In this document: in pieces, positions 30,952 to 52,387 of the stretch | Position numbering within the stretch: position 1 is the stretch's first letter | Layout of the letters: every line of letters begins with the position of its first letter | Source of the DNA: Actinomycetota bacterium | GTDB taxonomy: Bacteria; Actinomycetota; Acidimicrobiia; IMCC26256; PALSA-610 | Assembly (NCBI GenBank): GCA_003134555.1 | Contig: PLBO01000135.1 | Span: forward strand, 124,001 to 188,000 | DNA: 64,000 nt | Direction of reading: 5' to 3' | The notes under the pieces: generated by a model | What the model was told of the DNA's origin: nothing | Databases searched by the model: none | The model's input: only the letters and a program-made list of their open reading frames with translations | Program-made: the position numbers and the translations under genes

Positions 30952-32514
30952 GTGAACGAGGTGGGCGATCTCCTCGACGCGTACGAACCCATCGACGCCT
31001 GGGACGAGATGTTCGACGCGGCCGGCGACACCCGGCTCGACTACCGCGCGCTCTACGAGCACGTACAGACCCTCTCGAAGCACGATTTCGACGAGCGCTG
31101 CGCGACGCGGGACCGCGTCTTTCGTGACCAGGGCATCACCTTCGCGCACTCGGGCGAGGAGCGACCCTTCCCCCTCGACCTCGTTCCGCGCGTCATCTCC
31201 GCGACGGAGTGGTCGCAGATCGAGCGCGGGGTCGCGCAGCGGGTGCGCGCGCTCGAGCGGTTCCTCGACGACGTCTACGGCCCGGGCGAGATCATGCGCG
31301 CCGGGGTGGTTCCCCGGCGGTTGGTGGTCACCTCCTCGCACTTCCATCGGGCCGCGTGCGGTGGAATCTCTCCGCCCGGCGGCGTTCGGGTGCACGTGGC
31401 CGGAATAGATCTCGTACGAGACGCGGCCGGGAAGATGTGCGTGCTCGAGGACAACCTCCGCATCCCGTCGGGGGTCTCGTACGTCGTCGAGAACCGGCGC
31501 GCGATGACGCACGTGTTCCCCGAGCTGTTCGCCGCGCATCGGGTGCAACCGGTGTCCGACTACCCGGCGCGGCTGCTGCAGGCACTCAGCGCGACCGCGC
31601 CTCGCGGCGTCGACGACCCTCGCGTCGTACTCCTCACTCCGGGCGTGCACAACCCCGCCTACTTCGAGCATTCGTTCCTGGCGCGCCAGATGGGAGTCGA
31701 GCTCGTCGAGGGTCGTGATCTCGTATGTCGCGACAACGTGCTCTACATGCTGACGACGAGCGGTGAAGAGCGCGTCGACGTGGTCTACCGGCGAGTCGAC
31801 GACGAGTTTCTCGACCCGCTCCACTTCCTTCCCACCTCGATGTTGGGGTGCCCGGGGATCGTGAACGCGGCACGCGCCGGGAACGTCACCATTGCGAACT
31901 TCCTCGGCAACGGAGTGGCCGACGACAAGGCCGTGTATCCGTACGTCCCGGCGATGATCGAGTTCTATCTCGGCGAGCGCGCGCTTCTCTCGAACGTCGA
32001 GACGTTCATGCTCGACGACGAGGACGTGCGATCCTGGGCGCTCGATCGTCTCGACCAACTCGTCTGGAAGCCGGCCGACGGATCGGGCGGGAAGGGCATC
32101 GTGATCGGTCCGCGCGCGGAGGCGGATGCGCTCGAAGCCGTGCGCGTCGCGGTCGAGGCCGCGCCGCGCTCGTGGATCGCCCAGCAGCCGGTCGCGCTTT
32201 CGACCGCGCCCACATACGTGGGAACCGAGATGAAGCCGCGGCACCTCGATCTCCGACCGTTCGCGCTCAACGACGGTGAGAACGTGTGGGTCGTGCCCGG
32301 TGGTCTCACGCGCGTCGCGTTGGGGGAGGGAAGCCTCGTCGTGAACTCGAGCCAGGGAGGCGGGTCGAAGGACACCTGGGTGCTCGCTCCGCACGGCGCG
32401 GACGTCGAGCACGAGGCCACAGCCGTCGCCGACGGGATGGAGTGCGAACCACTCGCCCGCCAACCGTTCGACATGTTGCCCGCAGCTACCGAGCAGGCGG
32501 CCCAACAGCAGTGA
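30952..32514 (+). CDS. Circularly permuted type 2 ATP-grasp protein (COG2308)
   Basis: About 520 residues from GTG 30952 (GGCGAGG adjacent; other in-frame starts at 30907 and 30961). Typical family features are LDAYEPIDAWDEMFDA at the N-terminus, DNLRIPSGVSYVVENRR, KPADGSGGKGIVIG (ATP-grasp core) and GGLTRVALGEGSLVVNSSQGGGSKD. The family belongs to amidoligase-like ATP-grasp enzymes thought to make peptide bonds on a still unidentified peptide or metabolite. It is first of the conserved three-gene set with the alpha-E and transglutaminase proteins and is separated from the alpha-E gene by only 7 bp. Confidence 0.92.
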   Translation: MNEVGDLLDAYEPIDAWDEMFDAAGDTRLDYRALYEHVQTLSKHDFDERCATRDRVFRDQGITFAHSGEERPFPLDLVPRVISATEWSQIERGVAQRVRALERFLDDVYGPGEIMRAGVVPRRLVVTSSHFHRAACGGISPPGGVRVHVAGIDLVRDAAGKMCVLEDNLRIPSGVSYVVENRRAMTHVFPELFAAHRVQPVSDYPARLLQALSATAPRGVDDPRVVLLTPGVHNPAYFEHSFLARQMGVELVEGRDLVCRDNVLYMLTTSGEERVDVVYRRVDDEFLDPLHFLPTSMLGCPGIVNAARAGNVTIANFLGNGVADDKAVYPYVPAMIEFYLGERALLSNVETFMLDDEDVRSWALDRLDQLVWKPADGSGGKGIVIGPRAEADALEAVRVAVEAAPRSWIAQQPVALSTAPTYVGTEMKPRHLDLRPFALNDGENVWVVPGGLTRVALGEGSLVVNSSQGGGSKDTWVLAPHGADVEHEATAVADGMECEPLARQPFDMLPAATEQAAQQQ

Positions 32515-32521
32515 ACCCAAC

Positions 32522-33457
32522 ATGTTGAGCCGCATCGCGGAGTCGCTCTACTGGCTCGGGCGCTACGCCGAGCGCGCCGAAGTCACCGCCCGCATCCTCG
32601 ACGTCTACTCCCACGCTCTCCTGGAAGACCGGGTCGGCGGTGAAGAGTCGGCATGTCGTCGGCTCGTCGAGGCGATGGGTGCGACCGAACCGGCCGCGCT
32701 CGTGGAGGTCGGGACGAACGTCGAGTCGCTCGTCGGATTCTTCGTCGACGATCCCCGCTTCGACGGGTCGGTCGTTCGCTCCCTCGAAGCCATGTGGGAG
32801 AACGCCCGCGGTGCCCGCGAGGCGATGTCGTCGGAGATGTGGGGAAGCATCAACGCGACCCACAGCGCTCTCGACGCGCGACGTGGGCGATCGGTCTACG
32901 CCCAGCACGGGTTCCTGGGTTGGGTGCGCGACCGCGCTGCGATCGTGTCGGGACTCGCCGACGCGACGATGAGCCACGACGACACCTGGCGTTTCATCGT
33001 GCTCGGCCGTTCGCTCGAGCGCGTCGACCTCACGGTCCGTCTGTTGTCGACGCGTCTGGGCGACGCGTGGGGCACCGCGGGATGGGTCGCGACGCTGCGG
33101 TGCTGCGCGGCGTACGAGTCGTATCTCCGCACCTACCGGCGAGGCGTCGAGGGCTCCAAGGCGCTCGAGTTCCTGTTGCTCGACCGACTGTTCCCGCGCT
33201 CGGTCTTCCACGCACTCGGTGCCGCGGAGACGGCACTGTTCGACCTCGATCCCACCTCCGATCGACACGGCGCAGGAAGCGAGCCGCGTCGCGTCGTCGG
33301 CCGCGCGTGTGCAGACCTCGAGTTCATTCGCGTCGCGGAGCTCGAGCGATCGCTGCCGGAGCATCTCGCTCGGATCGAGCGTGCATGCTCGCACGCGCAC
33401 GATGTCATCGCGAAGCGCTTCTTCAACAACGCAATCGCGATCCGGTGGAGCGCGTAA
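32522..33457 (+). CDS. Alpha-E domain protein (COG2307)
   Basis: 311 residues from TTG/ATG at the annotated start (ATG 32522). All-helical alpha-E protein beginning MLSRIAESLYWLGRYAERAE, the hallmark of the family, with RFIVLGRSLERVDLTVRLL in the middle and a C-terminal RFFNNAIAIRW. No catalytic residues are known. In the comparative-genomics work on ATP-grasp amidoligases (Iyer and Aravind) this family always accompanies COG2308 and a transglutaminase. Its TAA stop overlaps the ATG of the following gene by one base. Confidence 0.92.
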   Translation: MLSRIAESLYWLGRYAERAEVTARILDVYSHALLEDRVGGEESACRRLVEAMGATEPAALVEVGTNVESLVGFFVDDPRFDGSVVRSLEAMWENARGAREAMSSEMWGSINATHSALDARRGRSVYAQHGFLGWVRDRAAIVSGLADATMSHDDTWRFIVLGRSLERVDLTVRLLSTRLGDAWGTAGWVATLRCCAAYESYLRTYRRGVEGSKALEFLLLDRLFPRSVFHALGAAETALFDLDPTSDRHGAGSEPRRVVGRACADLEFIRVAELERSLPEHLARIERACSHAHDVIAKRFFNNAIAIRWSA

Positions 33458-34299
33458 TGGCCTGGAGGCTCTCGATCGAACACGTCACCAGCTACGAGTA
33501 CGAAGGGGAGGTTCTCGCGTCGTACAACGAGGCGCGCATGAGTCCGGCCCGCGACGCCACGCAGATGGTTCTCGATCATCGCGTCGACGTTCGCCCGAGC
33601 GTTCCCGTCATGCACTACATCGACTACTGGGGTACCGAAGTGAGCGCGTTCGACGTTCACGAGCCGCACGACCGGCTCATCGTCGCGGCGCGCTCGCTGG
33701 TCGAAACCGTTGCTGCCTTTCCCGACGTCACTGATACCGACTGGGAGGTCTTGTGCGATGAAAATGTTCGCGACCAGTTCTACGAATACCTCCACCCATC
33801 TCCCTATGTTCCGATCGACGAACCGTTTCGTGATGTCGCGGTCTCGATCGCCGATGGTCGCACACCTCGCGAGACGGTCGAGGCCGTCAGCGCGTGGGTC
33901 CGCGAGAGCCTTGCGTACGAGGCCGGCGCGACCGACGTCTCGACGAACGCGCGGTCCGCCCTCGAACTGGGTCGCGGCGTCTGCCAGGACTTCGTCCATG
34001 TCGCGCTGGCGTTGCTGAGAGCCGCCGGCATACCGGCTCGGTATGCCTCCGGTTATCTGCATCCCGACGTCGACGCGTCGATCGACACGGCGGTGACCGG
34101 CCAGAGTCACGCCTGGCTCGAAGCGTGGACGGGGTCCTGGCAGCGCATCGACCCGACCAGTGGCGCCGACGTGGGCGAACAGCACGTGCTGGTCGCGCGC
34201 GGGCGCGACTACGCCGACGTCGCGCCGCTCAAGGGCGTCTACAACGGGCCGGCCGCGCGCTCGAGCGACGTGCGGGTCACGATCCGCCGCGTTGCCTGA
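33457..34299 (+). CDS. Transglutaminase-like protease of the ATP-grasp cluster
   Basis: 280 residues. An N-terminal beta-rich domain (WRLSIEHVTSYEYEGEV, the bacterial transglutaminase N-terminal motif) is followed by a papain-fold transglutaminase with Cys in GRGVCQDFVH near 175, His in QSHAWLEAW near 217 and Asp in WQRIDPTSG near 231, a complete triad. Family members are usually cysteine peptidases rather than cross-linkers. Translation is coupled to the alpha-E gene (TAATG), supporting a common complex or pathway that ligates and cleaves a peptide-like product. Confidence 0.93.
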   Translation: MAWRLSIEHVTSYEYEGEVLASYNEARMSPARDATQMVLDHRVDVRPSVPVMHYIDYWGTEVSAFDVHEPHDRLIVAARSLVETVAAFPDVTDTDWEVLCDENVRDQFYEYLHPSPYVPIDEPFRDVAVSIADGRTPRETVEAVSAWVRESLAYEAGATDVSTNARSALELGRGVCQDFVHVALALLRAAGIPARYASGYLHPDVDASIDTAVTGQSHAWLEAWTGSWQRIDPTSGADVGEQHVLVARGRDYADVAPLKGVYNGPAARSSDVRVTIRRVA

Positions 34300-37290: not shown

Positions 37291-38427
37291 ATGGCGACCA
37301 CTCCACGTGCGCACGACGACCTCGAAGCGATCCTCTCGCAGGTTGCGGTCGACGACGGCGCGGCCACGCACACCATCGCCTCGGACTTCGACGCGACGTT
37401 CACCTGGAACTACGCGAAGGGCGAACGCCCTGCCCTCGACAAGCTCTACGAGAAGGCGAAGACCTCGCAGTGGAACGGAGCGACCGATCTCGACTGGTCG
37501 ACCGAGGTCGATCCCGAACGAACCGCGGTCGAGCTCTCCCGGAACGATCGCCGCATGCAGTACGTGCGGTCTCTCGTCGACGAGCCCGGTTCGCCGGTGC
37601 GGAGTTGGGGTGAGCGCGAGATCACGCGCTACGCGATGGAGAATACCGCCCATCGAGTGAGTCAGTTCCTGCACGGCGAGCAGGGCGCGTTGATCTGCAC
37701 CGCCCGAATCGTCGAGACGGTGCCGTGGATCGACGCCAAGTACTACGCGTCGACTCAGGTGCTCGACGAGGCGCGCCACGTCGAGGTGTTCGGACGGTAT
37801 CTCGACGAAAAGCTGGAGACGCGCTACCCGATGAACGCGCACCTGGGAGCGCTCATCGACGACGTTCTCTCCGATTCGCGTTGGGACATCACGTACCTCG
37901 GGATGCAGATCCTGATCGAGGGTCTCGCGCTGGCCGCCTTCGGAACCATCTACCGGACGAGCTCCGAGCCCTTGCTGCGCCAGCTCATCCGCTACGTCAT
38001 GAGCGACGAAGCTCGGCACGTGGCGTTCGGCGTGCTGTCACTGCAGGAGGCGTACGCGGAGTTGTCGGGGCCGGAGCTGCGGGAACGCCAGGAGTTCGTG
38101 TACGAGGGTTCTCTGCGGATGCGCGACCGCTTCCTGCATCAGGAGGTCTGGGAACGTCTCGGCGTGTCGGCTCGGGCAATCGTTCCCTATTTCATTCGCC
38201 AGAACCGCGACGAGGAGATCCTCTTCCAGCGCATGTTGTTCGCGAAGATCGTGCCGAACTGCAAGAAGCTGGGTCTGCTCGACCCCCGCACGCCGTGGCT
38301 CCGCGAGCGGTTCACCGAGATGGGCGTGCTCGAGTACGAAGACTTCGTCGACACGAGTGTCGAGTACACCGAGCTCAACGCGATCGAGCAGGAACGGTCG
38401 ACCACCGAGGCGGCGGTGGGCCAGTGA
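37291..38427 (+). CDS. Ferritin-like diiron-carboxylate protein
   Basis: 378 residues from ATG 37291. Two E-x(29-30)-DEARH motifs form the diiron site: HGEQGAL with LDEARHVEVF near residue 160, and IEGLALA with SDEARHVAFG near 239. This is the layout of ferritin-like oxygenases and related AurF/ribonucleotide-reductase-type proteins. Length and helical content fit an oxygenase, not a ferritin. The next gene, an SDR, starts inside its stop (GTGA), and a kinase-like gene follows with ATGA overlap, so the three form a tightly coupled operon. The substrate is unknown. Confidence 0.85.
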   Translation: MATTPRAHDDLEAILSQVAVDDGAATHTIASDFDATFTWNYAKGERPALDKLYEKAKTSQWNGATDLDWSTEVDPERTAVELSRNDRRMQYVRSLVDEPGSPVRSWGEREITRYAMENTAHRVSQFLHGEQGALICTARIVETVPWIDAKYYASTQVLDEARHVEVFGRYLDEKLETRYPMNAHLGALIDDVLSDSRWDITYLGMQILIEGLALAAFGTIYRTSSEPLLRQLIRYVMSDEARHVAFGVLSLQEAYAELSGPELRERQEFVYEGSLRMRDRFLHQEVWERLGVSARAIVPYFIRQNRDEEILFQRMLFAKIVPNCKKLGLLDPRTPWLRERFTEMGVLEYEDFVDTSVEYTELNAIEQERSTTEAAVGQ

Positions 38428-39203
38428 AGTTGTCCGGTGCCAGGGTGGTCGTGACCGGTGCGTCGCGCGGGATCGGCGCGGCGCTGGCAACGGAGTTGGC
38501 GGCGCGGGGCGCTCGTGTCGTGCTCGTCGCGCGATCGGTCGAGCCGCTCGAGAAGCTCGCGGCCGAGCTCGGGGGCGAGGCCTTTCCCGCCGATCTCGCC
38601 GTCGCGTCCGGCATCGAGCCGCTGGTGCGGCGGATCGAGGCCGACGGTCCGATCGACGTGCTGGTCAACAACGCGGGCCTCGACCTCACCGGCGATCTCG
38701 TCGCCCTCCCGACCGACGAGATCGCGCGCCTGCTCGCGGTCAACCTCTGTGCACCGATGCTGTTGTGCCGGGCGGTGCTCCCGGGCATGCGGAGCCGGCG
38801 CCGGGGACACATCGTCAACGTGTCGTCGATCGCGGGCACCAATGCGCTGCCCGGTCTCGCGCCGTATTCCGCCTCGAAGGCCGGGCTCAGTCACTTCACG
38901 GCGGCGCTTCGGGCCGAGCTGAAGGGGACGCCGATCACGACGACGCTCGCGCAGGTCGGTCCCGTCGAGAGCACGATGATCGATTCCCTGCGCGCGCACC
39001 AGCCGACGCGTCGCGCGCTCGCCCGGCTCGAACGATTGCACGTCTCGTTCGATCTGCAAATGCCCGTCGTGGTCGACGCGCTCGTCGACGCGATTCAGCG
39101 GGACAAGCGCCATGTCCGCCTACCAAGGCGCGACGCGCTCTTCCCCTTGATCGTCGAGGTGCCGCGCCGCGTCACCGAGTTCCTCTTGGCGGGTGTGAGA
39201 TGA
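38424..39203 (+). CDS. Short-chain dehydrogenase/reductase
   Basis: 259 residues from GTG 38424, overlapping the diiron gene by 4 nt. Classical SDR: VVVTGASRGIGAALA cofactor loop near residue 12, NNAG in DVLVNNAGLDLTG, Ser in NVSSIAG, and the YSASK catalytic Tyr-Lys pair near 150. The C-terminal LFPLIVEVPRRVTEFLL segment is hydrophobic and may give membrane association. It probably oxidises or reduces the product of the upstream diiron protein, as the genes are coupled; this is inference. Confidence 0.9.
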   Translation: MKLSGARVVVTGASRGIGAALATELAARGARVVLVARSVEPLEKLAAELGGEAFPADLAVASGIEPLVRRIEADGPIDVLVNNAGLDLTGDLVALPTDEIARLLAVNLCAPMLLCRAVLPGMRSRRRGHIVNVSSIAGTNALPGLAPYSASKAGLSHFTAALRAELKGTPITTTLAQVGPVESTMIDSLRAHQPTRRALARLERLHVSFDLQMPVVVDALVDAIQRDKRHVRLPRRDALFPLIVEVPRRVTEFLLAGVR

Positions 39204-40243
39204 CGATTCCGAAGACGATCGACGACATCACCCCCGAATGGCTGAGCGACACACTCGGACGGTCGGTGACGCAGGTGACGAAGGAACCCGTAGGTGTCGG
39301 TGTCGGTCTCGTGGGCCAGCTGTTCCGGCTCCGGATGGAAGGTGACGGCGAACCCTCGACCGTCATCGCGAAACTCGCCGCGCCCACCGAAGAGGGTCGC
39401 TTCGTCGCCACCGTCCTCAACATGTACGGCCGTGAGGTCGGCTTCTACACCGAGCTGTCACCACGCACTTCGATCGCGCATCCGGTCTGCTATTTCGCCG
39501 CGCACGATCCGGCAACTCAGGACACGGTGCTGCTGCTCGAGGACGTCTCGGTCCGAGGACGCGGCGGCGACCAGGTGGCGGGCTGTTCGCTCGTCGAGGC
39601 GCGTCCCGCGATCCGCACCCTCGCCCGGTTGCATGCCTGCTTCTGGGACGACCCGTCGTTGGCGTCGTCGTCGTTCCTCCTGCGATTGGCCGACGATCCG
39701 TATCCCGCCGCGGTGGCGATGGCGTACGAGATGGCATGGCCGCGCGTGCAGGAGTTCTTCGGCGACATGATCGACGAGCGAGTCCGCGACTTCGGCGACG
39801 GATACGCGAAGCTGATTCCCGCGATGTTCGCCAAGCTGTGCGACGGGCCGCTCGTGCTGTCGCACTCCGACTGGCGGCTCGACAATCTCTTCTTCACCGA
39901 CGACGACGTGATCGCGGTCGACTGGCAGCTCATCGACCGGTCGGTCGGTCCGCGTGATCTCTCCTATCACGTGAGCCAGAGCGTCAACATCGACCATCCG
40001 GCGGGTTACGAGCACGCGTTCGACACGTACGTCTCCGACCTCGACGAGCTCGGAGTCGAGGTCGACCCGACGTGGGCCTGGGAGATGTACCGCTACGGCA
40101 CGATGCTCGGATTCGTGTACCCGGTAATCGCCACGGGTGCGCTGACGATCGAGGACCCTCGGCATGTCGAGCTCACCCGGGCGCTCTTCCGGCGCAGCCT
40201 GGCGGCACTGGACGCGCTCGACGCATTCGCGCTGGCGCTGTAG
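39200..40243 (+). CDS. Phosphotransferase-family (APH/EcK-like) kinase
   Basis: 347 residues from ATG 39200, overlapping the SDR stop (ATGA). The protein-kinase-like fold of the aminoglycoside phosphotransferase / ecdysteroid-kinase family: GVGLVGQLFRLRM (glycine-rich loop), VIAKLAAP (ATP-Lys), catalytic HSDWRLDNLFF near residue 222 and VIAVDWQLIDR carrying the metal Asp near 237. Such enzymes phosphorylate small hydroxylated molecules, or in acyl-CoA dehydrogenase-linked forms (ACAD10-like) 4-hydroxy acids. Coupling to SDR and diiron genes hints at kinase action on a hydroxylated lipid or terpenoid; inference. Confidence 0.88.
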   Translation: MTIPKTIDDITPEWLSDTLGRSVTQVTKEPVGVGVGLVGQLFRLRMEGDGEPSTVIAKLAAPTEEGRFVATVLNMYGREVGFYTELSPRTSIAHPVCYFAAHDPATQDTVLLLEDVSVRGRGGDQVAGCSLVEARPAIRTLARLHACFWDDPSLASSSFLLRLADDPYPAAVAMAYEMAWPRVQEFFGDMIDERVRDFGDGYAKLIPAMFAKLCDGPLVLSHSDWRLDNLFFTDDDVIAVDWQLIDRSVGPRDLSYHVSQSVNIDHPAGYEHAFDTYVSDLDELGVEVDPTWAWEMYRYGTMLGFVYPVIATGALTIEDPRHVELTRALFRRSLAALDALDAFALAL

Positions 40244-43268: not shown

Positions 43269-44627
43269 ATGCCCGAGCGAATCGATGCGGACGTCTGCGT
43301 CGTCGGCGCCGGATACGCCGGACTCACGGCCGCCCGGCGGCTGAGCCAGGGCGCGAAGTCGGTTGTCGTCCTCGAGGCGCGTGACCGCGTCGGGGGCCGG
43401 ATCTGGACGCAACATCTGTCCGATGGTGCTGCGGTCGACCGCGGCGGCGCGTGGCTGGGCCCAAAGCACGATGCGATCTTCGGGCTCGCGCGGGAGGTCG
43501 GCGTCTCGACGTACAAGACGTGGGTCAAGGGTGCTCACCTCCTCGTCGACGGTGAACGAACGCGCCGCTACACGGGCCTCATTCCGAAGATCAGCCCACT
43601 CGCAGTCGTCACGATCGCCCTCGCGCAGGTGCGACTCGATCGGATGGCCAAGAAGGTTCCACTCGAGACCCCGTGGACGGCGAAGCGCGCCGCTGAGTGG
43701 GACGCGCGTTCGGTGGCGTGGTGGATCGAGCGTTCCGGCATCACTGCCGGCATCGGGCGCGACCTGTTCGAGATGGCGGTCCGCGGCCTGTTCACCGGCG
43801 ACCTCAACGACACGTCATTCCTCCATCTGCTGTTCCTGGTGCGCGCGCACGGAAGTATCAACACGCTGTTCTCGATCGAAGGCGGCTCGCAGGAGAACAT
43901 GGTCGAAGGCGGCGCCGGGTCGATCGCTCGGCGCGTCGCCGACGACCTGGGCGACTCGATGCGGCTGAGCTCACCGGTCCGGTCGATCACGCAAGGCGAC
44001 GATCACGTGCTCGTCGACACGGGCGCGCTCACGGTGTCGGCTCGCCACGCGGTTGTCACGGTCCCGCCCGCGCTCGCCGTCGACATCGCGTTCGATCCCG
44101 TCCTCCCCGACGACCGTCTGACGCTGTACCGCAGCGCCGTCGCCGGCCCGGAGAGCAAGACGCTCGTGGTCTACGACGAGCCGTTCTGGCGAGCCGACGG
44201 CTTCAGCGGCCAAACGTCGCAGCCCGGCTCGGCATGCGAAGTGACTCTCGACGCGTCGCCCGCGACCGGTTCCCCCGGGGTCATCGCATCGTTCGCGTTC
44301 GGAGCGGTTGCTGAGCGCTTCGACGCACTCGACCCCGCGGAGCGCCGGCGCGCGGTGCTCGACGCGCTGACGCGCCGGCTCGGGCCGCGCGCGGCATCAC
44401 CCGTCGAATTCATCGAGACGGCGTGGTGGGCGGAGGAGTGGACCCGCGGCTGCTCGATGGCGCACCTTCCGCCGGGGATCCTCACGCGCTACGGACCGCT
44501 GCTCCGGGAGCCGTTCGGACGCGTGCACTGGGCCGGGACGGAAACGTCGACCACGTCGCACGGCGCGATCGACGGCGCGGTTCGTTCGGGCGAACGCGCC
44601 GCGGCCGAAATCCTCGATCGCAGCTAA
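43269..44627 (+). CDS. Flavin monoamine/putrescine oxidase family protein
   Basis: 452 residues. FAD-binding dinucleotide fold VCVVGAGYAGLTAARRL near residue 12 with VVVLEARDRVGGRIWT, and a C-terminal flavin clamp VHWAGTETSTTSHGAIDGAVRSGERAA (short motifs). The substrate domain between resembles bacterial monoamine and putrescine oxidases. Product would be an aldehyde plus H2O2 and ammonia. It follows the saccharopine-dehydrogenase-like gene by 24 bp and is near the polyamine uptake and degradation genes at 46-54 kb, so putrescine or a related amine is the likely substrate; inference. Confidence 0.9.
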   Translation: MPERIDADVCVVGAGYAGLTAARRLSQGAKSVVVLEARDRVGGRIWTQHLSDGAAVDRGGAWLGPKHDAIFGLAREVGVSTYKTWVKGAHLLVDGERTRRYTGLIPKISPLAVVTIALAQVRLDRMAKKVPLETPWTAKRAAEWDARSVAWWIERSGITAGIGRDLFEMAVRGLFTGDLNDTSFLHLLFLVRAHGSINTLFSIEGGSQENMVEGGAGSIARRVADDLGDSMRLSSPVRSITQGDDHVLVDTGALTVSARHAVVTVPPALAVDIAFDPVLPDDRLTLYRSAVAGPESKTLVVYDEPFWRADGFSGQTSQPGSACEVTLDASPATGSPGVIASFAFGAVAERFDALDPAERRRAVLDALTRRLGPRAASPVEFIETAWWAEEWTRGCSMAHLPPGILTRYGPLLREPFGRVHWAGTETSTTSHGAIDGAVRSGERAAAEILDRS

Positions 44628-44632
44628 CGGGG

Positions 44633-45307
44633 CTACTGCGGTCCGAGCTCGACGAGTCCGCTCTCTCGTGCGAACTGGACCAGCTCGGCTCGCGTCCGCA
44701 GACCGAGCTTGCGGTGAATGTGCGCGCGATGCGATTCGATGGTGCGAAGACTCACGTTGCAAAGGCGCGCGACCTCGACGTTGGTGTGGCCGAGCGCGAT
44801 CAACTGCAGGACCTGCTCCTCGCGGGGCGAGAGTCCGAGTGTCGCGTCGCGAGGGCGATGCCAGCGCGCCAGCTCGACGCCGAGCGACGGTTGCAGATAG
44901 GTCCGGCCATCGGCGACGGCGCGTATCCCGGTGAGCAGATCCGAGGTCGCGGCCGTCTCGAGCACGTACCCGGCGGCGCCGGCGGCAAGCACCGACTGGA
45001 CCTCGGTGGGATGGCCGATCGGCGTGAACACCAAGATCGAGCTCTGGGCGAAGTACCCGCGCAGCGCGCTGATCACGTCGCCGTGTTTGGCGTCCGGCAG
45101 GTCGATGTCGGTGACGATGACGTCGGGCCGCACGTCGAGACTTCCTGCGTCATGGACGCTCCCGGCTTGGGCCACGACGACGAGATCGGATTGCTGGTCG
45201 ATCACGGCGGAGAGACCTTCTCGCACCACCGCGCGGCTGTCGACGAGCATGACGCGTATTGCCGGACCCAACGGTGAAGTCCCGTCGAATCCGCTGGTCA
45301 GAGACAT
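44633..45307 (-). CDS. NarL/LuxR-type response regulator with atypical receiver
   Basis: 224 residues. The C-terminal LuxR helix-turn-helix is intact (LSPREEQVLQLIALGHTNVEVA, RTIESHRAHIHRKLGL). The receiver retains a phosphorylatable Asp (D67 in VTDIDLPD) and Thr95, but the acidic pair VDD is VDS (D23, S24), and the conserved Lys of GYLLK is Glu117 in GYVLET. This predicts weak or no phosphorylation switching. No histidine kinase lies nearby. Its ribosome site is CAGGAGAAG, and the start region faces the TetR gene with a shared palindromic operator in between. Confidence 0.9.
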   Translation of the reverse strand: MSLTSGFDGTSPLGPAIRVMLVDSRAVVREGLSAVIDQQSDLVVVAQAGSVHDAGSLDVRPDVIVTDIDLPDAKHGDVISALRGYFAQSSILVFTPIGHPTEVQSVLAAGAAGYVLETAATSDLLTGIRAVADGRTYLQPSLGVELARWHRPRDATLGLSPREEQVLQLIALGHTNVEVARLCNVSLRTIESHRAHIHRKLGLRTRAELVQFARESGLVELGPQ

Positions 45308-45348
45308 CTTCGTACGCTTCTCCTGCTAGTCAGACCGTCCTTTCTACT

Positions 45349-45378
45349 GTAGCAACAGACCGGTCTGTCTGCTACATT
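45349..45378 (+). promoter_or_regulatory. TetR operator inside a leaderless promoter
   Basis: Perfect palindrome ACAGACC-GGTCTGT (45355-45368) with outer GTAGCA...TGCTAC arms (45349-45354 and 45370-45375, one base out of register). TACATT (45373-45378) ends seven bases before ATG 45386, the leaderless spacing used elsewhere here. On the other strand TACAGT points toward the NarL-type gene, so a bound repressor would cover both promoters. Confidence 0.7.
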
Positions 45379-45385
45379 TCCGACC

Positions 45386-46015
45386 ATGGTCGCGACTTCG
45401 CCGGATCGCCTGGGATCACCGTCGAGCGCCCGGGAACGCATTCTGGACACCGCGTACGACCTCTTCTCGCAGCGAGGCATCCGCGGAGTCGGGGTCGACG
45501 AGGTGGTCGAGCGGTCGGGCGTCGCCAAGGCGACGCTCTACCGACATTTCCCGGCGAAGGACGATCTCGTGGTCGCCTTCTTGGAGCTGCGCGAACAGCG
45601 CTGGAGCCGTGGTCTGGAGATGGAAGCCAAGCGCCGCGGCACCTCCCCCGAAGATCAGCTCCTTGCCATCTTCGATGTTTTCGAGGAGTGGTTTCGCCGC
45701 GACGACTTCGAGGCCTGCTCCTTCGTCAACACGCTCCTCGAGCTCGGGCCGCAGCACCCCGCGGCCCGGGCCGCGGCCGTCCACCTCGCGAACATCAGAT
45801 CGATCCTGCGCGAGCTTGCCGAGGCTGCGGGCCTACGCGACCCCGCTGGCTTTACGCACTCTTTGCAACTCGTGATGAAGGGCTCGATCATCGCCGCCGC
45901 AGAGGGCGACGCCAACGCGGCGAAGCGCGGCCGTTCGATCGCTCGCCTCCTCGTCGACGACTACCGCTGCCAGTCGGCGATGCCGGTCGCTAGATGCGGG
46001 ACCACGCTTCGGTGA
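45386..46015 (+). CDS. TetR-family regulator near the polyamine genes
   Basis: 209 residues. Helix-turn-helix in RILDTAYDLFSQRGIRGVGVDEVVERSGVAKATLYRHFPAK (short pieces), then an all-helical ligand domain with RRDDFEACSFVNTLLELG (a TetR_C pattern close to YcdC/AcrR-like members). The ATG is fixed by a leaderless promoter. The last 26 bp overlap tail-to-tail with the aminotransferase gene. Likely represses itself and perhaps the divergent NarL-type gene; its ligand may be an amine or aldehyde, which is a guess. Confidence 0.9.
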   Translation: MVATSPDRLGSPSSARERILDTAYDLFSQRGIRGVGVDEVVERSGVAKATLYRHFPAKDDLVVAFLELREQRWSRGLEMEAKRRGTSPEDQLLAIFDVFEEWFRRDDFEACSFVNTLLELGPQHPAARAAAVHLANIRSILRELAEAAGLRDPAGFTHSLQLVMKGSIIAAAEGDANAAKRGRSIARLLVDDYRCQSAMPVARCGTTLR

Positions 46016-47333
46016 GCACCGTACGCAGCACCTGTTCGATGTAGTCGAACTCGGGCGGGCCGATGATGAGCGGCGGGGCGAGCTGTACGACAGGATCGCC
46101 GCGGTCGTCGGCGCGGCAGATCAGCCCGGCGTCGTACAGCGCGCGCGAGAGAAAGCCGCGCAGGAGGCGTTCACTCTCCTCCGCGTTGAAGGACGTGCGG
46201 GTGGCTTTGTCCTTGACGAGCTCGATGCCGTAGAAGTAGCCCGCGCCCCGAACGTCGCCGACGATCGGCAGGTCGCGCAGCTTGTCGAGCGTCGCACGGA
46301 ACGTGCCCTCGTTGGCGCGCACGTGTTCGAGCAGACCTTCACGCTCCATGAGATCGAGGTTCGCGAGCGCGACCGCGCAGCTCACCGGATGACCGCCGAA
46401 CGTGATGCCCTGCAGGAACGTCGAGTGGTCTCTCAGGAACGGCTCGACGAGATAGGGGCGCGCGATCATCCCGCCGATTGGCGAGTAGCCCGACGTCATG
46501 CCTTTGGCCATCGTGATGATGTCGGGCTGATAGTCGTAGCGCTGCGAGCCGAACCAGTGACCGAGCCGTCCGAACGCGCAGATCACCTCGTCCGACACGA
46601 GCAGCACGCCCGTCTCGTCGCAGATCTCGCGGACACGCTGGAAGTAACCGTCGGGCGGCGGGAAGCAACCGCCGGAATTCTGCACCGGCTCGAGGAACAC
46701 GGCGGCGACGCTTTCCGGCCCCTCCATCTCGATCGCGAGGGCGATCGCCTCCGCCGGGTCGATCGGCGCGGGCCGGTACGGGTTGGTGTTGACGACGCGT
46801 ATGGCCCCGGGCACGAGGGGTTCGAAGGGCGTCTTGATCGACGGGACACCGGTGATCGACAGCGCGCCCATGGTCGTGCCGTGATACGCGATGTGGCGAC
46901 CGATCACCTTGTAGCGATGCGGTTGACCGATGGCTTGGAAGTACTGCCGGGCGAGCTTCCACGCGGACTCGACCGCTTCACCGCCGCCCGTCGTGAAGAA
47001 GACGCGTTCGAGATCGCCGGGCGCCAGGTCGGCGAGGCGCTCGGCCAGCTCGATAGCGCCGGGGTGCGCGTAACTCCAGACCGGGAAATACGCGAGCTTG
47101 CGGGCCTGCTCGGCCGCGGCGTCGGCGAGCTCGTTGCGACCGTGACCCACCTGCGACACGAAGAGCCCGGCGAGGCCGTCGAGATAGCGCTTGCCGTTCT
47201 GGTCGTAGACCCATGCGCCTTCGCCGCGCACGATCACGGGAATGCTGGCCGTCGGATCGGACATCGGCGTGAAATGCATCCACAGATAACGCTGTGCGGC
47301 TGCGGTAAGCGTGTCGGGCGATGTCGTTGTCAT
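45990..47333 (-). CDS. Class III omega-amino acid/diamine aminotransferase (SpuC-like)
   Basis: 447 residues from ATG 47333, which overlaps the Lrp stop by one base (TGATG). PLP enzyme fold type I: YLDGLAGLFVSQVGHGR, FFTTGGGEAVESAWKLAR, HGTTMGALSITG, DEVICAFGRLG and the PLP lysine in ITMAKGMTSGYSPIGG near residue 276. Closest in plan to putrescine or omega-amino acid:pyruvate aminotransferases. With Lrp, aldehyde dehydrogenase and PotABCD next to it, it would convert putrescine to 4-aminobutanal. The substrate is inferred from context. Confidence 0.9.
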   Translation of the reverse strand: MTTTSPDTLTAAAQRYLWMHFTPMSDPTASIPVIVRGEGAWVYDQNGKRYLDGLAGLFVSQVGHGRNELADAAAEQARKLAYFPVWSYAHPGAIELAERLADLAPGDLERVFFTTGGGEAVESAWKLARQYFQAIGQPHRYKVIGRHIAYHGTTMGALSITGVPSIKTPFEPLVPGAIRVVNTNPYRPAPIDPAEAIALAIEMEGPESVAAVFLEPVQNSGGCFPPPDGYFQRVREICDETGVLLVSDEVICAFGRLGHWFGSQRYDYQPDIITMAKGMTSGYSPIGGMIARPYLVEPFLRDHSTFLQGITFGGHPVSCAVALANLDLMEREGLLEHVRANEGTFRATLDKLRDLPIVGDVRGAGYFYGIELVKDKATRTSFNAEESERLLRGFLSRALYDAGLICRADDRGDPVVQLAPPLIIGPPEFDYIEQVLRTVLTEAWSRI

Positions 47334-47815
47334 CAGGTTCCCCAGGAATAGGTCTGCTTTTCGAGCCGGAGGTAGACGAATGTCTCCGTCGAACGGATCC
47401 CCGGGATCGATCGGATCTGGGTATTGATCACTTCGAGCAGATGCTCGTCGTCGCGCGCGGTCAGCTCGACGAGGAGGTCGTAGGTGCCCGAGCAGATGAC
47501 GACGTAGTCGATCTCCGCGTTGGCGCTCAGCTTGGCCGCCAGCTCCCGCACGTCGCCGTCGACCTTGATGCCCACCATGGCCTGACGATGGAGCCCGACC
47601 CGCAGCGGATCGGTCACGGCGACGATCTGCATCACGCCGGCGTCGAGGAGCCGCTGGACCCGCTGGCGGACGGCGGCCTCGGACAGCCCGATCGTCTTTG
47701 CAATCGAGGTGTAGGGGCGGCGACCATCGCGCTGGAGCTCCCGGATGATCCGCATCGACACGTCGTCGAGCAGGGGAGCGGATGTGCGAATATCGTCGTC
47801 AGAAACCTGTGCCAC
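47333..47815 (-). CDS. Lrp/AsnC-family regulator
   Basis: 160 residues. AsnC-type helix-turn-helix near residues 20-65 (DDVSMRIIRELQRDGRRPY, IGLSEAAVRQRVQRLLDAGV) followed by the RAM ligand domain (VGIKVDGDVRELAAKL, YDLLVELTARDDEHLLEVI). It precedes the aminotransferase in one transcript, with overlapping start and stop, and is divergent from the aldehyde dehydrogenase across an 83-bp gap. Likely senses an amino acid such as GABA or a diamine and controls both neighbours. Confidence 0.92.
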   Translation of the reverse strand: MAQVSDDDIRTSAPLLDDVSMRIIRELQRDGRRPYTSIAKTIGLSEAAVRQRVQRLLDAGVMQIVAVTDPLRVGLHRQAMVGIKVDGDVRELAAKLSANAEIDYVVICSGTYDLLVELTARDDEHLLEVINTQIRSIPGIRSTETFVYLRLEKQTYSWGT

Positions 47816-47898
47816 AACGATCTACTTGTCTAGACAGCGGTTGATCTGCGGATACTAGCCTTCAACGGGCAGCAGATCGCGCAGAGAGGGGTCCCCCG

Positions 47899-49323
47899 AT
47901 GGAAGTCGTGCAGAACCTGGTGAACGGCAAGCCGGTCGACGCCCGAGACGGCGCCACCACCCCCCTCGTCGACCCGTGTACCGGCGAGACCTACGGGTCG
48001 GCCCCCCTGTCGAGCGCGGCCGACGTCGACGAGGCCGTCGCGGCCGCGAACGCCGCGTTCGGCGGCTGGCGCTCGAGCACACCGTCCGAGCGCAGCCTCG
48101 CCCTGTTGCGAATCGCGGACGCGCTCGAAAAGGACGCGGATCGCTTCGTCGATGCCGAGTGCCGCAGCACCGGCAAGCCCAAAGTGTTGATGGCCGGCGA
48201 CGAGATCCCGCCCGCGGTCGACCAGTTGCGCTTCTTCGCCGGCGCGGCGCGCATGCTCGAAGGGCGCGGCGCGGGCGAATACATGGCGGGCCTCACGTCG
48301 TTCATCCGGCGTGAACCGATCGGCGTGGTCGCGCAGGTGTCGCCGTGGAATTACCCGCTGATGATGGCGATCTGGAAGATCGCGCCCGCGCTCGCCGCGG
48401 GCAACGCAGTCGTGCTGAAGCCGGCTGAGAGCACCCCCGAGACAACGGTGATGCTCGCCGAGCTCGCGGCCGAGTTCCTCCCGGCCGGCGTGTTCAACGT
48501 CGTGTGCGGCGACCGCGACACCGGGCGCGCGTTGATGGCGCATCCGGTGCCCGGGCTCGTCTCGATCACCGGCAGTGTGCGCGCGGGCATGGAGGTCGCG
48601 GCGGCAGCTGCCAGTGACCTGAAGCGCGTGCACCTCGAGCTCGGCGGCAACGCCCCCGTCATTGTCTGCGACGACGCCGACCTGGAAGCAGCCGCGGAAG
48701 GTATCGCCGCGGCCGGTTTCTACAACGCGGGCCAGGACTGCACCGCCGCGACGCGCGTGCTCGCCGCGGCATCGGTCTACGACCGCTTCGTCGACCTGCT
48801 CGTCGCCCAGGCATTGAACAAGACCGTCGGCGGGCTCGACGTTCCCGACGCCGATCTCGGTCCGCTCAACAACCCGAGTCAGCTCGAACGCGTGCAGGGC
48901 TTCATCGGGCGTCTGCCGGCCCACGCACAAGTGCTGTGCGGTGGCAAGCGGGTCGGTGACTCCGGATACTTCTTCGCGCCGACGGTCGTCGCGGGGTTGA
49001 AGCAGGACGACGAGATCGTGCAGCAGGAGGTGTTCGGCCCCGTGATCACGGTGCAGCGTTTCGGCGAGGTCGACGAAGGGCTGCGCGACGCGAACGGCAC
49101 CGACTACGGGCTGTCGTCGAGTGTCTGGACGCGCGACCACGGCAACGCCATGCGTCTGTCGGCCGCGCTCGACTTCGGCTGCGTGTGGATCAACACTCAC
49201 ATCCCGCTCGTCGCCGAGATGCCGCACGGCGGATTCAAGCACTCCGGCTACGGCAAGGACCTCTCGATCTACGCGCTCGACGATTACACGCGCGTCAAGC
49301 ACGTCATGAGCTCGATCGACTGA
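47899..49323 (+). CDS. Aldehyde dehydrogenase, aminobutyraldehyde dehydrogenase-like
   Basis: 474 residues from ATG 47899 behind AGAGAGGGG. NAD-dependent ALDH with QVSPWNYPLMMAIWKIAPALAAGN, catalytic Glu in LELGGNAP near 250 and Cys in FYNAGQDCTAATR near 280, plus the late EVFGPVITV and PHGGFKHSGYGKDLS. The GQDC form and KHSGYGKD tail match the PatD/YdcW-type gamma-aminobutyraldehyde dehydrogenases. It would make GABA from 4-aminobutanal. It sits between two aminotransferases, giving the middle step of a putrescine-to-succinate route. Confidence 0.92.
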   Translation: MEVVQNLVNGKPVDARDGATTPLVDPCTGETYGSAPLSSAADVDEAVAAANAAFGGWRSSTPSERSLALLRIADALEKDADRFVDAECRSTGKPKVLMAGDEIPPAVDQLRFFAGAARMLEGRGAGEYMAGLTSFIRREPIGVVAQVSPWNYPLMMAIWKIAPALAAGNAVVLKPAESTPETTVMLAELAAEFLPAGVFNVVCGDRDTGRALMAHPVPGLVSITGSVRAGMEVAAAAASDLKRVHLELGGNAPVIVCDDADLEAAAEGIAAAGFYNAGQDCTAATRVLAAASVYDRFVDLLVAQALNKTVGGLDVPDADLGPLNNPSQLERVQGFIGRLPAHAQVLCGGKRVGDSGYFFAPTVVAGLKQDDEIVQQEVFGPVITVQRFGEVDEGLRDANGTDYGLSSSVWTRDHGNAMRLSAALDFGCVWINTHIPLVAEMPHGGFKHSGYGKDLSIYALDDYTRVKHVMSSID

Positions 49324-49343
49324 CCTCGCCCGGATTTAGGATT

Positions 49344-50636
49344 TCAGCCGCGCACCGCTTTTTCGAGGGCATCGAGGCCCTCGTCGAGGAGCGATTCGTC
49401 GAGCACGAGCGGCGGGAGCAGCCGCACGACGTTGCCGGACGTTCCGGCGGTGAGGACGATCACGCCCTGGGTGTGGCAGTCGGCGCAGACGCGCTTGGCG
49501 CGCTCCGCGTCGGGCGTGCCGTCGTCGTTGACGAGCTCGATCGCAACCATCGCACCCCGGCCCCGGACGTCGCCGATACCGGTGGTGTCGTGCTGCAGCG
49601 CCACCAGCCGCTCGAGCATGCGGTTGCCCAGCATCTGCGCGCGCTCCACGAGCTGTTCCTTCTCGATCACGTCGATCGCCGCCAGCGCCGCGGCGCACGA
49701 CACCGGGTTCCCGCCGAAGGTGCTGCCGAGGCCGCCGGCGTGGACGGCGTCCATGATCTCGGCGCGGCCCGTCACGCCGGCGATCGGCATGCCGCCACCG
49801 AGACCCTTCGCGGTCGCGACGAGATCGGGCACGACACCTTCGTGCTCGCTCGCGAACCACGCGCCCGTGCGCCCGAAGCCGGTTTGCACCTCGTCGGCGA
49901 CGAAGACCACTCCGTTGGACCGGCACCACTGCGCGATCCCCTCGAGCCATCGGGGTTCGGGTACGACGAATCCACCCTCACCGGCGATGGGTTCGACGAC
50001 GACGCACGCGATCTGCGAGACGTCGACGCTCGCCTCGATCCACTCGAGCGTCTCCGCAAGACGCCCGGTACCGCGGAACGGGTACGAGAACGGCGCCCGG
50101 TAGATCTCGGGCGCGTACGGACCGAACGACTTCTTGTACGGCACCACCTTGGCGGTGAGCGAGAGCCCGAGCAGCGTGCGACCGTGGAAGGCCTGATCGA
50201 ACGCGATCACCGCGGGCCGCCCGGTGGCCGCCCGTGCGATCTTCACCGCGTTCTCGACGGCCTCGGCCCCCGAGTTCACGAGCACCGAGCGCTTCTCGTG
50301 ATTTCCGGGCGTGCGGGCCGCGAGCTGCTCGCAGACCGCGACGTAGCCCTCGTAGGGCGTCACCTGGAAACACGTGTGGACGAAGTTCGCGGCCTGCTGC
50401 GCGATCGCCTCGACGACCGCGGGATGCGCATGCCCGACGTTCACCACCGCGATGCCGGAGCCGAGGTCGATCAACCGGTTGCCGTCGACGTCCTCGACGA
50501 TGCCGCCCTGCGCGCGCTGGACGAAGATCGGCAGGGTCGTGCCCACTGCGGCCGGTACCGCACGCGTGCGGCGCTCCCACAGGGCGCGCGAGCGCGGACC
50601 CGGGATCTCCGTGACGAGCTTGCGTTTCTGTTTCAT
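49344..50636 (-). CDS. gabT: 4-aminobutyrate aminotransferase
   Basis: 430 residues from ATG 50636. Class III aminotransferase of the GabT type: LWERRTRAVPAAVG, DLGSGIAVVNVGHAHP, NSGAEAVENAVKIARAATGRP, FHGRTLLGLSLTAK, EPIAGEGGF, DEVQTGFGRTG and the PLP Lys in ATAKGLGGGMPIAG near residue 277. It transfers the amino group of GABA to 2-oxoglutarate giving succinate semialdehyde. It ends 20 bp from the convergent aldehyde dehydrogenase and begins 6 bp downstream of the PotC gene stop, so it is probably the last gene of the polyamine transport operon. Confidence 0.92.
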   Translation of the reverse strand: MKQKRKLVTEIPGPRSRALWERRTRAVPAAVGTTLPIFVQRAQGGIVEDVDGNRLIDLGSGIAVVNVGHAHPAVVEAIAQQAANFVHTCFQVTPYEGYVAVCEQLAARTPGNHEKRSVLVNSGAEAVENAVKIARAATGRPAVIAFDQAFHGRTLLGLSLTAKVVPYKKSFGPYAPEIYRAPFSYPFRGTGRLAETLEWIEASVDVSQIACVVVEPIAGEGGFVVPEPRWLEGIAQWCRSNGVVFVADEVQTGFGRTGAWFASEHEGVVPDLVATAKGLGGGMPIAGVTGRAEIMDAVHAGGLGSTFGGNPVSCAAALAAIDVIEKEQLVERAQMLGNRMLERLVALQHDTTGIGDVRGRGAMVAIELVNDDGTPDAERAKRVCADCHTQGVIVLTAGTSGNVVRLLPPLVLDESLLDEGLDALEKAVRG

Positions 50637-50642
50637 CCTGAC

Positions 50643-51470
50643 CTACCCCAGTGCTGTTGCATCGATGGCCCCGGCGCCGCGCCGCGCGGCCCTCACGCTG
50701 AAGTATCCGCCGATGGCCAGCAGTACGAGCGAAGAGAGCAGCACGATCGTCGACAGAGCGTTGATCGAAGGCGAGACCCCGAACCTGAGCTGACCGAAGA
50801 TATAAAGCGGCAGGGTCGTGGAACCGGGGCCGGCAGTGAACGACGTGATCACGACGTCGTCGAGCGAGATCGTGAACGCGAGCATCGCACCCGCGAAGAT
50901 CCCCGGCGCCGCGAGCGGCAGCACGACCCGGAGGAAGGCTTGGAACGGAGTGGCACCGAGGTCGGCCGCCGCCTCGACGAGCCGGTTGTCGAACGCGGTC
51001 AAACGTGCCTTCACGACGACGACGACGAAAGCAATGCAGAACGTGATGTGCGCGGCGATCACCGTTCGGATGCTCAGGTCGACGTGGGCAAATCGCCGGA
51101 AGAAGGCGGTGAGCGAGATTCCCATGACGATCTCGGGCATGACCAAGGAGATGAAGATCAGTGTCGAGTAGGCGGAGCGACCGCGGAACCGGAATCGAGT
51201 GAGCGCGAACGCCGCGAGGGTGCCGATCACAGTTGCGAAGAGCGTTGCTATGAAGGCGACCTTCAGGGTGTTGCGGAAGGCCTGCAGCGCGTCGTGATTG
51301 TGGGCGAGGGAGCTGTACCAACGGGTGGAGAAGCCCGACCAGGAGGTGCCGCTCTTTGCCTTGTTGAAGCTGAACACCACGAGCACGACGATCGGCGCGA
51401 ACAAGAAGGCGAACACGAGAGCCGCGTGCAGCTTGAGGTACCGCGGGCGCAGCGCGCTCTTGGTGCTCAC
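50643..51470 (-). CDS. potC: Polyamine ABC transporter permease, PotC-like
   Basis: 275 residues from GTG 51470, overlapping the PotB stop (GTGA). Six membrane helices starting with LHAALVFAFLFAPIVVLVVFSF and an EAA loop VEAADLGATPFQAFLRVVLPLAAPGI (short parts) for contact with the ATPase. The ISLDDVVITSFTAGPGSTTLPLYI section is the classic PotC/PotI signature. It forms the channel with PotB. Overlapping genes and common strand show it belongs to a PotA-D-B-C operon. Confidence 0.93.
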   Translation of the reverse strand: MSTKSALRPRYLKLHAALVFAFLFAPIVVLVVFSFNKAKSGTSWSGFSTRWYSSLAHNHDALQAFRNTLKVAFIATLFATVIGTLAAFALTRFRFRGRSAYSTLIFISLVMPEIVMGISLTAFFRRFAHVDLSIRTVIAAHITFCIAFVVVVVKARLTAFDNRLVEAAADLGATPFQAFLRVVLPLAAPGIFAGAMLAFTISLDDVVITSFTAGPGSTTLPLYIFGQLRFGVSPSINALSTIVLLSSLVLLAIGGYFSVRAARRGAGAIDATALG

Positions 51471-52387
51471 AGCGCTTCCTCGCCGACGCGCCACAGGTAC
51501 ACGAAGACGCCCAGAAGGATGAGCATCATGAGCAGCACCGACATCGCCGAACCCAACGGCCAGTTGTTGCCGCTCCCGAACTGGTCGTAGACCGTGTTGC
51601 CGAACATCTGGGTTTTCACGCCGCCGAGCAGCTCGGGCGTCACGAAGTCGCCGACCGCCGGAATGAAGACCAGGAGGATCCCGGCGATGAGTCCGGGCGA
51701 GACCGTCGGAATGATCACGCGGAACAGGGTCGACGTCTTGCCGTGGCCGAGGTCGTAACTCGCCTCGACCAGCGACTTGTCCATGCGCTCGATCGATGCG
51801 TACAGCGGCAGGATCATGAACGGCAGGAAACCGTATGTCAGGCCGAGGATGACCGCGAAATGTGTGTTGAGGAACGTGTGGTCGTTGCCGAGCCCGATCG
51901 CGCCCAACACCGAGTTCAGCAAACCGTTGCGCTGCAGTATGAACTGCCACGCGTACATACGGATGAGATAACTCGTCAGGAACGGGATGATGACGAGTAC
52001 GAGGTACACGTTGCGGAAGCGGCCCCCGAACCTGGCTATCCAGTACGCGAGCGGGAACCCGAGGAGCACACATGCGATCGTCGATACCAGTGCGTATGCG
52101 ATCGATCGGGTGAAGATCGGCAGGAACAGGGGGTTCAACGCGAGGTTGTAGTTCGAGAAGTTCAGGTGTCCCCACGAGAAGCGAACGGGCGTGATGACGC
52201 CGCGTTGGCCCAAGCTGTACGCGACCACGAGAAGCGTCGGGATCACGAGCAGGAACAGGAACCACACGCTCGTAGGCAGCAGCAGAAGATTCCCCGTGAT
52301 CCAATCGGGGAGTCTTCGCCGTCTCGGCGGCGGCGGCGGCCTCGCCTCGACCTCGATCTCGCTCAAGCCGTCTTGACCTTCGTCCAC
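51467..52387 (-). CDS. potB: Polyamine ABC transporter permease, PotB-like
   Basis: 306 residues from ATG 52387, overlapping the substrate-binding gene by 25 bp. A TTG inside the N-terminus is an alternative start. Six transmembrane helices (LLLLPTSVWFLFLLVIPTLLVV at the start) and an EAA motif in VEASYDLGHGKTSTLFRVIIPTVSPGLIAG, with GDFVTPELLGG typical of PotB/PotH. The N-terminal 30 residues are Pro/Arg-rich and cytoplasmic. It pairs with PotC. Confidence 0.93.
   Translation of the reverse strand: MDEGQDGLSEIEVEARPPPPPRRRRLPDWITGNLLLLPTSVWFLFLLVIPTLLVVAYSLGQRGVITPVRFSWGHLNFSNYNLALNPLFLPIFTRSIAYALVSTIACVLLGFPLAYWIARFGGRFRNVYLVLVIIPFLTSYLIRMYAWQFILQRNGLLNSVLGAIGLGNDHTFLNTHFAVILGLTYGFLPFMILPLYASIERMDKSLVEASYDLGHGKTSTLFRVIIPTVSPGLIAGILLVFIPAVGDFVTPELLGGVKTQMFGNTVYDQFGSGNNWPLGSAMSVLLMMLILLGVFVYLWRVGEEAL

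Follow-up and report, generated by a model that had tools for sequence, protein, structure and literature searches.

A diiron protein, a short-chain dehydrogenase and an EcKL kinase encoded by linked genes in Acidimicrobiia

Three genes follow each other with overlapping ends in a 64,000-nucleotide stretch of an actinomycetotal genome (contig PLBO01000135.1, positions 124,001 to 188,000; hereafter the window), and they raise the question whether their coupling is accidental and, if not, what the encoded proteins may do together. The genes code for a ferritin-like diiron protein that is likely an iron-dependent oxygenase, a short-chain dehydrogenase/reductase (SDR) and a small-molecule kinase of the EcKL family. 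The source assembly (GCA_003134555.1) comprises 4.63 Mb in 154 contigs, and the named contigs with the closest homologues are labeled as Actinomycetota, Actinomycetes, or Acidimicrobiia. An initial annotation, made from the letters of the window, had proposed that the three proteins hydroxylate, oxidize or reduce, and phosphorylate one small molecule. It had also held that the coupling would be accidental if the genes occurred separately in most relatives. As set out below, the coupling is not accidental. The reading that we prefer is a tailoring or detoxification operon whose three enzymes would act on one hydrophobic small molecule by oxidizing it, adjusting it through the SDR, and phosphorylating it; we give this reading a probability of about 45%.

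Linkage of the three genes in related genomes

As the initial annotation had stated, the genes overlap by 4 nt, in the form of a chain of two overlaps (Table 1). A search for the same triple in other Actinomycetota found it in members of three families within the order. When the diiron type of this locus is defined by matches at E <= 1e-150, it is present in nine of the 58 genomes of the order that were searched. These are the four genomes of the window's genus (G000 to G003), two further members of the same family (G007 and G010), one genome of a second family (G045), and two genomes of a third family that belong to one genus (G051 and G040). The SDR gene is the next gene in all nine carriers, and the kinase gene is adjacent on the same contig in seven. 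In the other two, G003 and G010, the contig ends at this point, and another contig opens with the kinase gene or with the tail of it; the contigs likely join there. The arrangement varies in G051 and G040, where the diiron gene is inverted and lies on the opposite strand between the kinase and SDR genes; in G040 its first part is in another frame, perhaps due to a frameshift. Overlaps of 4 nt are also found in G001, at both junctions in G045, between the SDR and kinase genes of G048, and between the diiron and SDR genes of G007. Other junctions are looser, with a 33-nt gap before the kinase gene in G007 and 1 nt in G009, or abut, as do the diiron and SDR genes of G010. Because the linkage recurs in three families and with 4-nt overlaps in other genera, it is more than a chance neighborhood. 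The genes have stayed neighbors in several families even where they were reshuffled, and therefore the three proteins probably act together on one compound.

The expectation that an accidental coupling would leave the genes apart in most relatives thus does not hold for these orthologues. Only the families at large behave in this way: homologues of the diiron protein exist in 56 of 61 relatives, mostly in several copies per genome, EcKL homologues exist in 38 of the 61, and the two kinds of gene mostly lie apart. At E <= 1e-55 the kinase was found in 11 of the 58 genomes of the order. Matches at E <= 1e-45 occur in eight of 396 genomes of the phylum, with best identities outside the class of 39% (G238) and 36% (G273). 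In tblastn searches around the kinase genes of G238, G273, and G079, neither a diiron nor an SDR gene was detected beside them.

The initial annotation knew of no described pathway with this gene order, and literature searches, which did not reach most subscription papers, listed none. The enzyme trio is real, conserved, built from known families, and apparently undescribed.

Families and catalytic motifs of the three proteins

The putative ligands of the diiron protein (E130, E160, H163, E210, E240, and H243) are invariant across 26 aligned homologues. Both DEARH motifs are complete, as had been noticed at the outset, and cover residues 159-163 and 239-243; together with E130 and E210 they provide the full set of four glutamates and two histidines. 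The best NCBIfam match is R2lox with 39.9 bits, far under the cut-off of 194, and the AurF family of Pfam (PF11583) scores 27.2 bits, under its gathering cut-off of 29.6 (28.5 bits for the G045 protein). The Pfam family Ald_deCOase gives a weak match of 16.3 bits, also below the curated cut-off. The predicted structure (pLDDT 77.3, pTM 0.80) resembles R2lox (7qbp; Z 21.9, 246 residues aligned) and AurF (2jcd; Z 21.0 over 289 residues), and R2 proteins match too. In a Foldseek search the top match was R2lox (E 2e-4), and structures of the aldehyde-deformylating oxygenase (ADO) were among the best.

With R2lox the diiron protein shares the four glutamates and two histidines in R2 order and the top structural matches, but it differs at the Tyr-Val cross-link. 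According to PMC4118035, this link joins Y162 and V72 of R2lox, with V72 three residues after the first glutamate ligand. The position of the tyrosine is taken by M205, which is invariant in the 26 rows, and by spacing the position of V72 would correspond to A133. The AurF-type N-oxygenases, which include CmlI and AzoC, have a third histidine. PMC6783550 gives the motif of AzoC as Glu102, Glu137, His140, Glu198, His225, Glu229, and His232, and places the third histidine four residues ahead of the last glutamate ligand; PMC9478400 also describes the motif. In the diiron protein this place is occupied by V236, which is nearly invariant in the same alignment. Membership in R2lox and in AurF was thus rejected on scores and residues alike: the protein is related to both but stands outside both families as defined, because the third histidine and the cross-link tyrosine are missing.

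Alternatively, the diiron protein could be an ADO or belong with the AurF-like N-oxygenases, and the operon would then modify an amine or a fatty aldehyde. The weak AurF and Ald_deCOase matches, the alignment with 2jcd, and the ADO structures in the Foldseek search point in this direction. However, all three family scores are under their curated cut-offs, V236 replaces the third AurF histidine, and ADO proteins have a length of about 220-245 residues, compared to 378 here. This alternative is unlikely.

We found no close characterized member of the diiron family. The family is widespread: 29 of the 198 genomes searched throughout the phylum have a match at E <= 1e-20. At 50 of 82 places with a diiron gene (80 loci on named contigs), a neighbor belongs to one of two gene clusters, and the one sampled member of each cluster scores as TetR. 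In two marine-type genomes, tandem diiron paralogues lie straight behind a gene of a TetR cluster (L070:4668-7062 and L077:4633-7062). A plasmid of Rhodococcus opacus (L167:4411-8462) encodes a distant, 48% identical relative between a molybdopterin oxidoreductase and the ferredoxin fdxA; the position of fdxA directly after the diiron gene is a hint at the electron donor.

The SDR is a clear member of its family (PF00106, 169.6 bits). The motifs TGASRGIG at residue 11, NNAG at 82, and YSASK at 148 agree with the classical signature (TGxxxGxG, NNAG, Ser, YxxxK) and were also followed through an alignment of 11 orthologous sequences, including a partial one; VARS comes after the first of them, at residue 35. 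The arginine of VARS presumably indicates a preference for NADP(H).

The third protein, initially labeled as kinase-like, can be named more precisely. It matches EcKL (PF02958) with 49.7 bits at a gathering cut-off of 22, whereas the aminoglycoside-type phosphotransferase family APH scores only 25.2 bits; the EcKL scores of the G051, G040, and G007 kinases are 67.8, 59.1, and 54.2 bits. Every catalytic motif is present: K58, H222-x-D224-x4-N229, and D241 are invariant in five of five aligned rows and would represent the catalytic lysine, the HxDxxxxN loop, and the metal-binding aspartate. The structure model, built from five sequences, is poor (pLDDT 58.9), and the identification of the kinase therefore rests on Pfam and the motifs. 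A Foldseek search with this model gave no match at E <= 0.001, and phmmer against solved structures returned one chance match only. The G051 and G040 kinases have a further match to DUF1679, a Pfam family that takes its name from the nematode "oxidoreductase dhs-27", which we take to be a fusion of an SDR and a kinase. Insect EcKLs act on ecdysteroids, according to PMC12117438. The kinase of the window shares with this family a score above the cut-off and intact motifs, but it is bacterial, and its operon also encodes a diiron protein. No described function of bacterial EcKL kinases was found in literature searches.

Neighborhoods of other EcKL genes and a possible joint function

The surroundings of EcKL genes outside the triple were compared with a genomic background. 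Fifty-two other loci of the class were used, of which 49 came from the 54 non-triple rows of the search and three from another search; the five remaining rows were not counted apart, as two were inside fetched stretches and three were unfetched. The neighborhood was defined as 3 kb on either side of the EcKL gene (272.5 kb scanned, with some flanks cut by contig ends). As background served 40 random stretches from seven long-contig genomes, of which three overlapping ones were dropped; of the resulting 111 tiles, two were skipped and 109 used. None of the 52 loci has a diiron gene in its neighborhood. Genes for LLM-type flavoenzymes are enriched (19/52 versus 5/109 tiles; Fisher p 4e-7), as are SDR genes (14/52 versus 11/109; p 0.0095) and AMP-binding ligases (9/52 versus 3/109; p 0.002), one of which directly follows the G010 kinase gene. 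An LLM or cytochrome P450 gene occurs at 24 of the 52 loci, a number counted by eye, and in 10 of the 109 tiles (Fisher p 2.4e-7); since several of the 14 queries stem from EcKL loci, the count without the query-supplying L200, L202, and L204 is 21 of 49. The P450 calls were checked with Pfam at three loci and the LLM calls at one. The surroundings of diiron paralogues, used as a second background, contained LLM genes at 3, P450 genes at 1, and SDR genes at 8 of 71 places.

Four of 20 hits to distant EcKL genes on plasmids were inspected, and their neighbors are of similar kinds. On a Sphingobium plasmid, consecutive genes encode a P450, a rubredoxin, an EcKL kinase, and an acyl-CoA dehydrogenase. 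The EcKL gene has an LLM gene nearby on a plasmid of M. avium, SDRs and a phytanoyl-CoA dioxygenase on one of Paraburkholderia, and an arylsulfatase and an SDR on one of Rhodococcus. In two distant genomes the EcKL gene is followed by a gene for a similar-looking protein of approximately 370 amino acids (L203:3995-6248 and L205:2780-4996), which is a second conserved EcKL partner; one of these proteins weakly matches DUF7065 (26.7 bits, below the cut-off) and the other has no Pfam match.

These neighborhoods raise the possibility, which we hold with considerable reserve, that the EcKL kinases of Actinomycetota form the second half of a general oxidize-and-phosphorylate module. Its oxidizing partner would be exchangeable, being an LLM flavoenzyme, a P450, or an R2lox-like diiron C-H oxygenase bridged to the kinase by the SDR. 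Such a module would give bacteria a phase-I/phase-II system in which the conjugate is phosphate. It would also provide a function for a large orphan diiron family that has several copies in most Acidimicrobiia examined, and, if the link between EcKL genes and oxidases holds, bacterial EcKL kinases would gain a role that can be tested. The recurrent EcKL-oxidase neighborhood is a more general and more surprising lead than the trio itself.

The closest described pairs of an SDR and a kinase are LvaD and LvaA of the lva operons (PMC6692424 and PMC12440821). By analogy to lva and ACAD10/11, the SDR could produce a 4-hydroxyacyl-CoA, the kinase could phosphorylate it, and an acyl-CoA dehydrogenase could eliminate the phosphate, with the diiron protein supplying the hydroxy acid of a levulinate-like route. 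The side-by-side SDR and small-molecule kinase, the AMP-binding ligases near EcKL genes, and the gene row of the Sphingobium plasmid would be in line with this scheme. However, the lva route has an acyl-CoA dehydrogenase and an LvaA-type kinase, whereas here an EcKL kinase, which scores lower as APH, is joined by an additional diiron protein. Acyl-CoA dehydrogenase genes are not enriched near EcKL genes (1/52 versus 6/109), none was hit in the examined stretches of G001, G002, G045, G007, G051, and G040, the carriers besides the window whose triple lies on one contig, and the window has none within 20 kb of the trio (the nearest is at 11890-13039). Elimination of the lva type was rejected for the lack of this enrichment, and a route of this general kind is quite improbable.

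In the tailoring or detoxification operon that we favor, the diiron protein would activate O2 and oxygenate the substrate at carbon. The probably NADP(H)-dependent SDR would set the ketone or alcohol state of the same or a neighboring carbon, and the EcKL kinase would then phosphorylate the hydroxyl, so that the product may be rendered soluble, trapped, or activated. Bacteria would thereby have their own form of oxidize-then-phosphorylate metabolism, in which the oxidizing enzyme varies by locus among LLM flavoenzymes, P450s, and diiron proteins. The gene order, the overlaps, the linkage, the intact catalytic motifs, and the predicted diiron fold are the basis of this reading, and from them we infer the O2 chemistry at carbon, the shared substrate, the order of steps, the SDR cofactor, and the product. 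The LLM, P450, and SDR genes near other EcKL genes and the fdxA gene behind the R. opacus relative of the diiron gene also speak for it. The order proposed initially, with hydroxylation followed by oxidation and phosphorylation, has a difficulty: oxidation by the SDR would turn the new hydroxyl into a ketone, and the kinase would lose its site unless the substrate has another hydroxyl. A reducing SDR or another order of steps is therefore at least as likely.

Several points weigh against joint action of this kind. The activity proposed for the operon goes beyond motifs, fold, and linkage, and the fold match of the predicted diiron structure ties R2, R2lox, and AurF (Z 20-22) and does not separate them. 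No reductase or ferredoxin gene was recognized beside the diiron gene of the window. Near EcKL genes, the enrichment of P450 genes alone is marginal (7/52 versus 5/109; p 0.057). The EcKL loci are moreover related to each other, forming 21 clusters at 50% identity, of which eight have an LLM or P450 gene, and the LLM family includes F420-dependent oxidoreductases, so that "oxygenase" is not an assured label. Finally, G048 and G009 encode SDR-kinase pairs without the diiron protein, and G011 encodes the kinase without either partner. It counts in favor of the unit, however, that these three genomes, which are 95-98% complete, lack a diiron gene of this type elsewhere at E <= 1e-150. In G009, a gene for a protein of pentapeptide repeats (L127:11150-11764) overlaps the SDR gene by 4 nt in the usual place of the diiron gene; a PAP2 phosphatase, considered for this gene, was ruled out by the Pfam result.

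The gene histories bear on joint action in both directions. In the diiron tree, seven of the nine genes form one clade (support 100/100), with G007 and G010 outside but without firm support, and a single origin of all nine is not rejected by the approximately unbiased (AU) test (p 0.163). In the kinase tree, by contrast, G007 groups with the window's genus, G045, G048, G009, and G011 (100/99), and the G051 and G040 kinases are outside. Forcing the kinase tree toward the diiron grouping is rejected (AU p 5e-5), as is forcing the diiron tree toward the kinase grouping (AU p 0.00072), but these p values are optimistic because the trees were already known when the groups were chosen. Since the two histories differ, the three genes must have been brought together anew at least once, which speaks for joint action. 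The simplest reading would be that one member was exchanged or independently recruited and that the three genes came together again afterward. The kinases of G045 and G048, which belong to one family, form the sister group of the kinases in the window's genus and are nested among the kinases of another family, a placement that points to a cassette transferred from family to family.

The conflict between the trees is also compatible with a core that consists of the SDR and the kinase, which would reduce a ketone and phosphorylate the resulting alcohol, while the diiron enzyme would be an optional feeder that provides the oxygenated substrate in some lineages only. G048 and G009 retain just this pair, SDR genes are enriched near other EcKL genes, and the DUF1679 match of the G051 and G040 kinases points the same way. 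On the other hand, the diiron gene adjoins the SDR gene in every carrier and hence is part of the unit where present, and in G011 the kinase occurs without the SDR too. A core of two enzymes is possible but doubtful. That the three genes share a transcript and no pathway would fit the solitary diiron and EcKL homologues of many relatives, but it is very unlikely for genes that are linked in three families, in two orientations, and despite conflicting trees. The operon ties one branch of the diiron family to a reductase and a kinase, and narrows its chemistry to reactions that leave or use a hydroxyl. It is worth a biochemist's time, but lacking a substrate it ranks as one orphan operon among many.

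Layout and surroundings of the locus

The coordinates of the trio and of the gene that follows it are compiled in Table 1.

Table 1. Genes and gene junctions of the diiron-SDR-kinase locus (positions in the window).
Feature	Position	Strand	Details
Ferritin-like diiron protein, 378 aa	37291..38427	+	ATG start, TGA stop
GTGA, 4-nt overlap between the diiron stop and the SDR start	38424..38427	+	
Classical SDR oxidoreductase, 259 aa	38424..39203	+	GTG start, TGA stop
ATGA, 4-nt overlap between the SDR stop and the kinase start	39200..39203	+	
EcKL-family small-molecule kinase, 347 aa	39200..40243	+	ATG start, TAG stop
Membrane fatty-acid desaturase-like protein, 314 aa	40393..41337	+	PF00487 56.5 bits; genus-specific neighbor

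The desaturase-like gene had initially been drawn into the scheme as lying 150 bp downstream. Its position was given correctly (with the start codon chosen here, the gene begins 149 nt past the kinase stop), but its inclusion was not borne out: it is linked to the trio in the four genomes of the genus and was not seen in the stretches of G045, G007, G051, G040, and G010. As the linkage is confined to the genus, the desaturase was ruled out as a fourth member of the unit.

Two other regions of the window may be mentioned. Positions 43269-54653 encode an amine oxidase (PF01593) and a saccharopine-dehydrogenase-like protein, after which an aminotransferase, an aldehyde dehydrogenase, and a polyamine-type ABC transporter were recognized by eye; this looks like a region of polyamine catabolism. 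Positions 30952-34299 contain three consecutive genes on the + strand, a common trio; by eye, the last two code for a protein with an alpha-E domain and for a transglutaminase-like protein.

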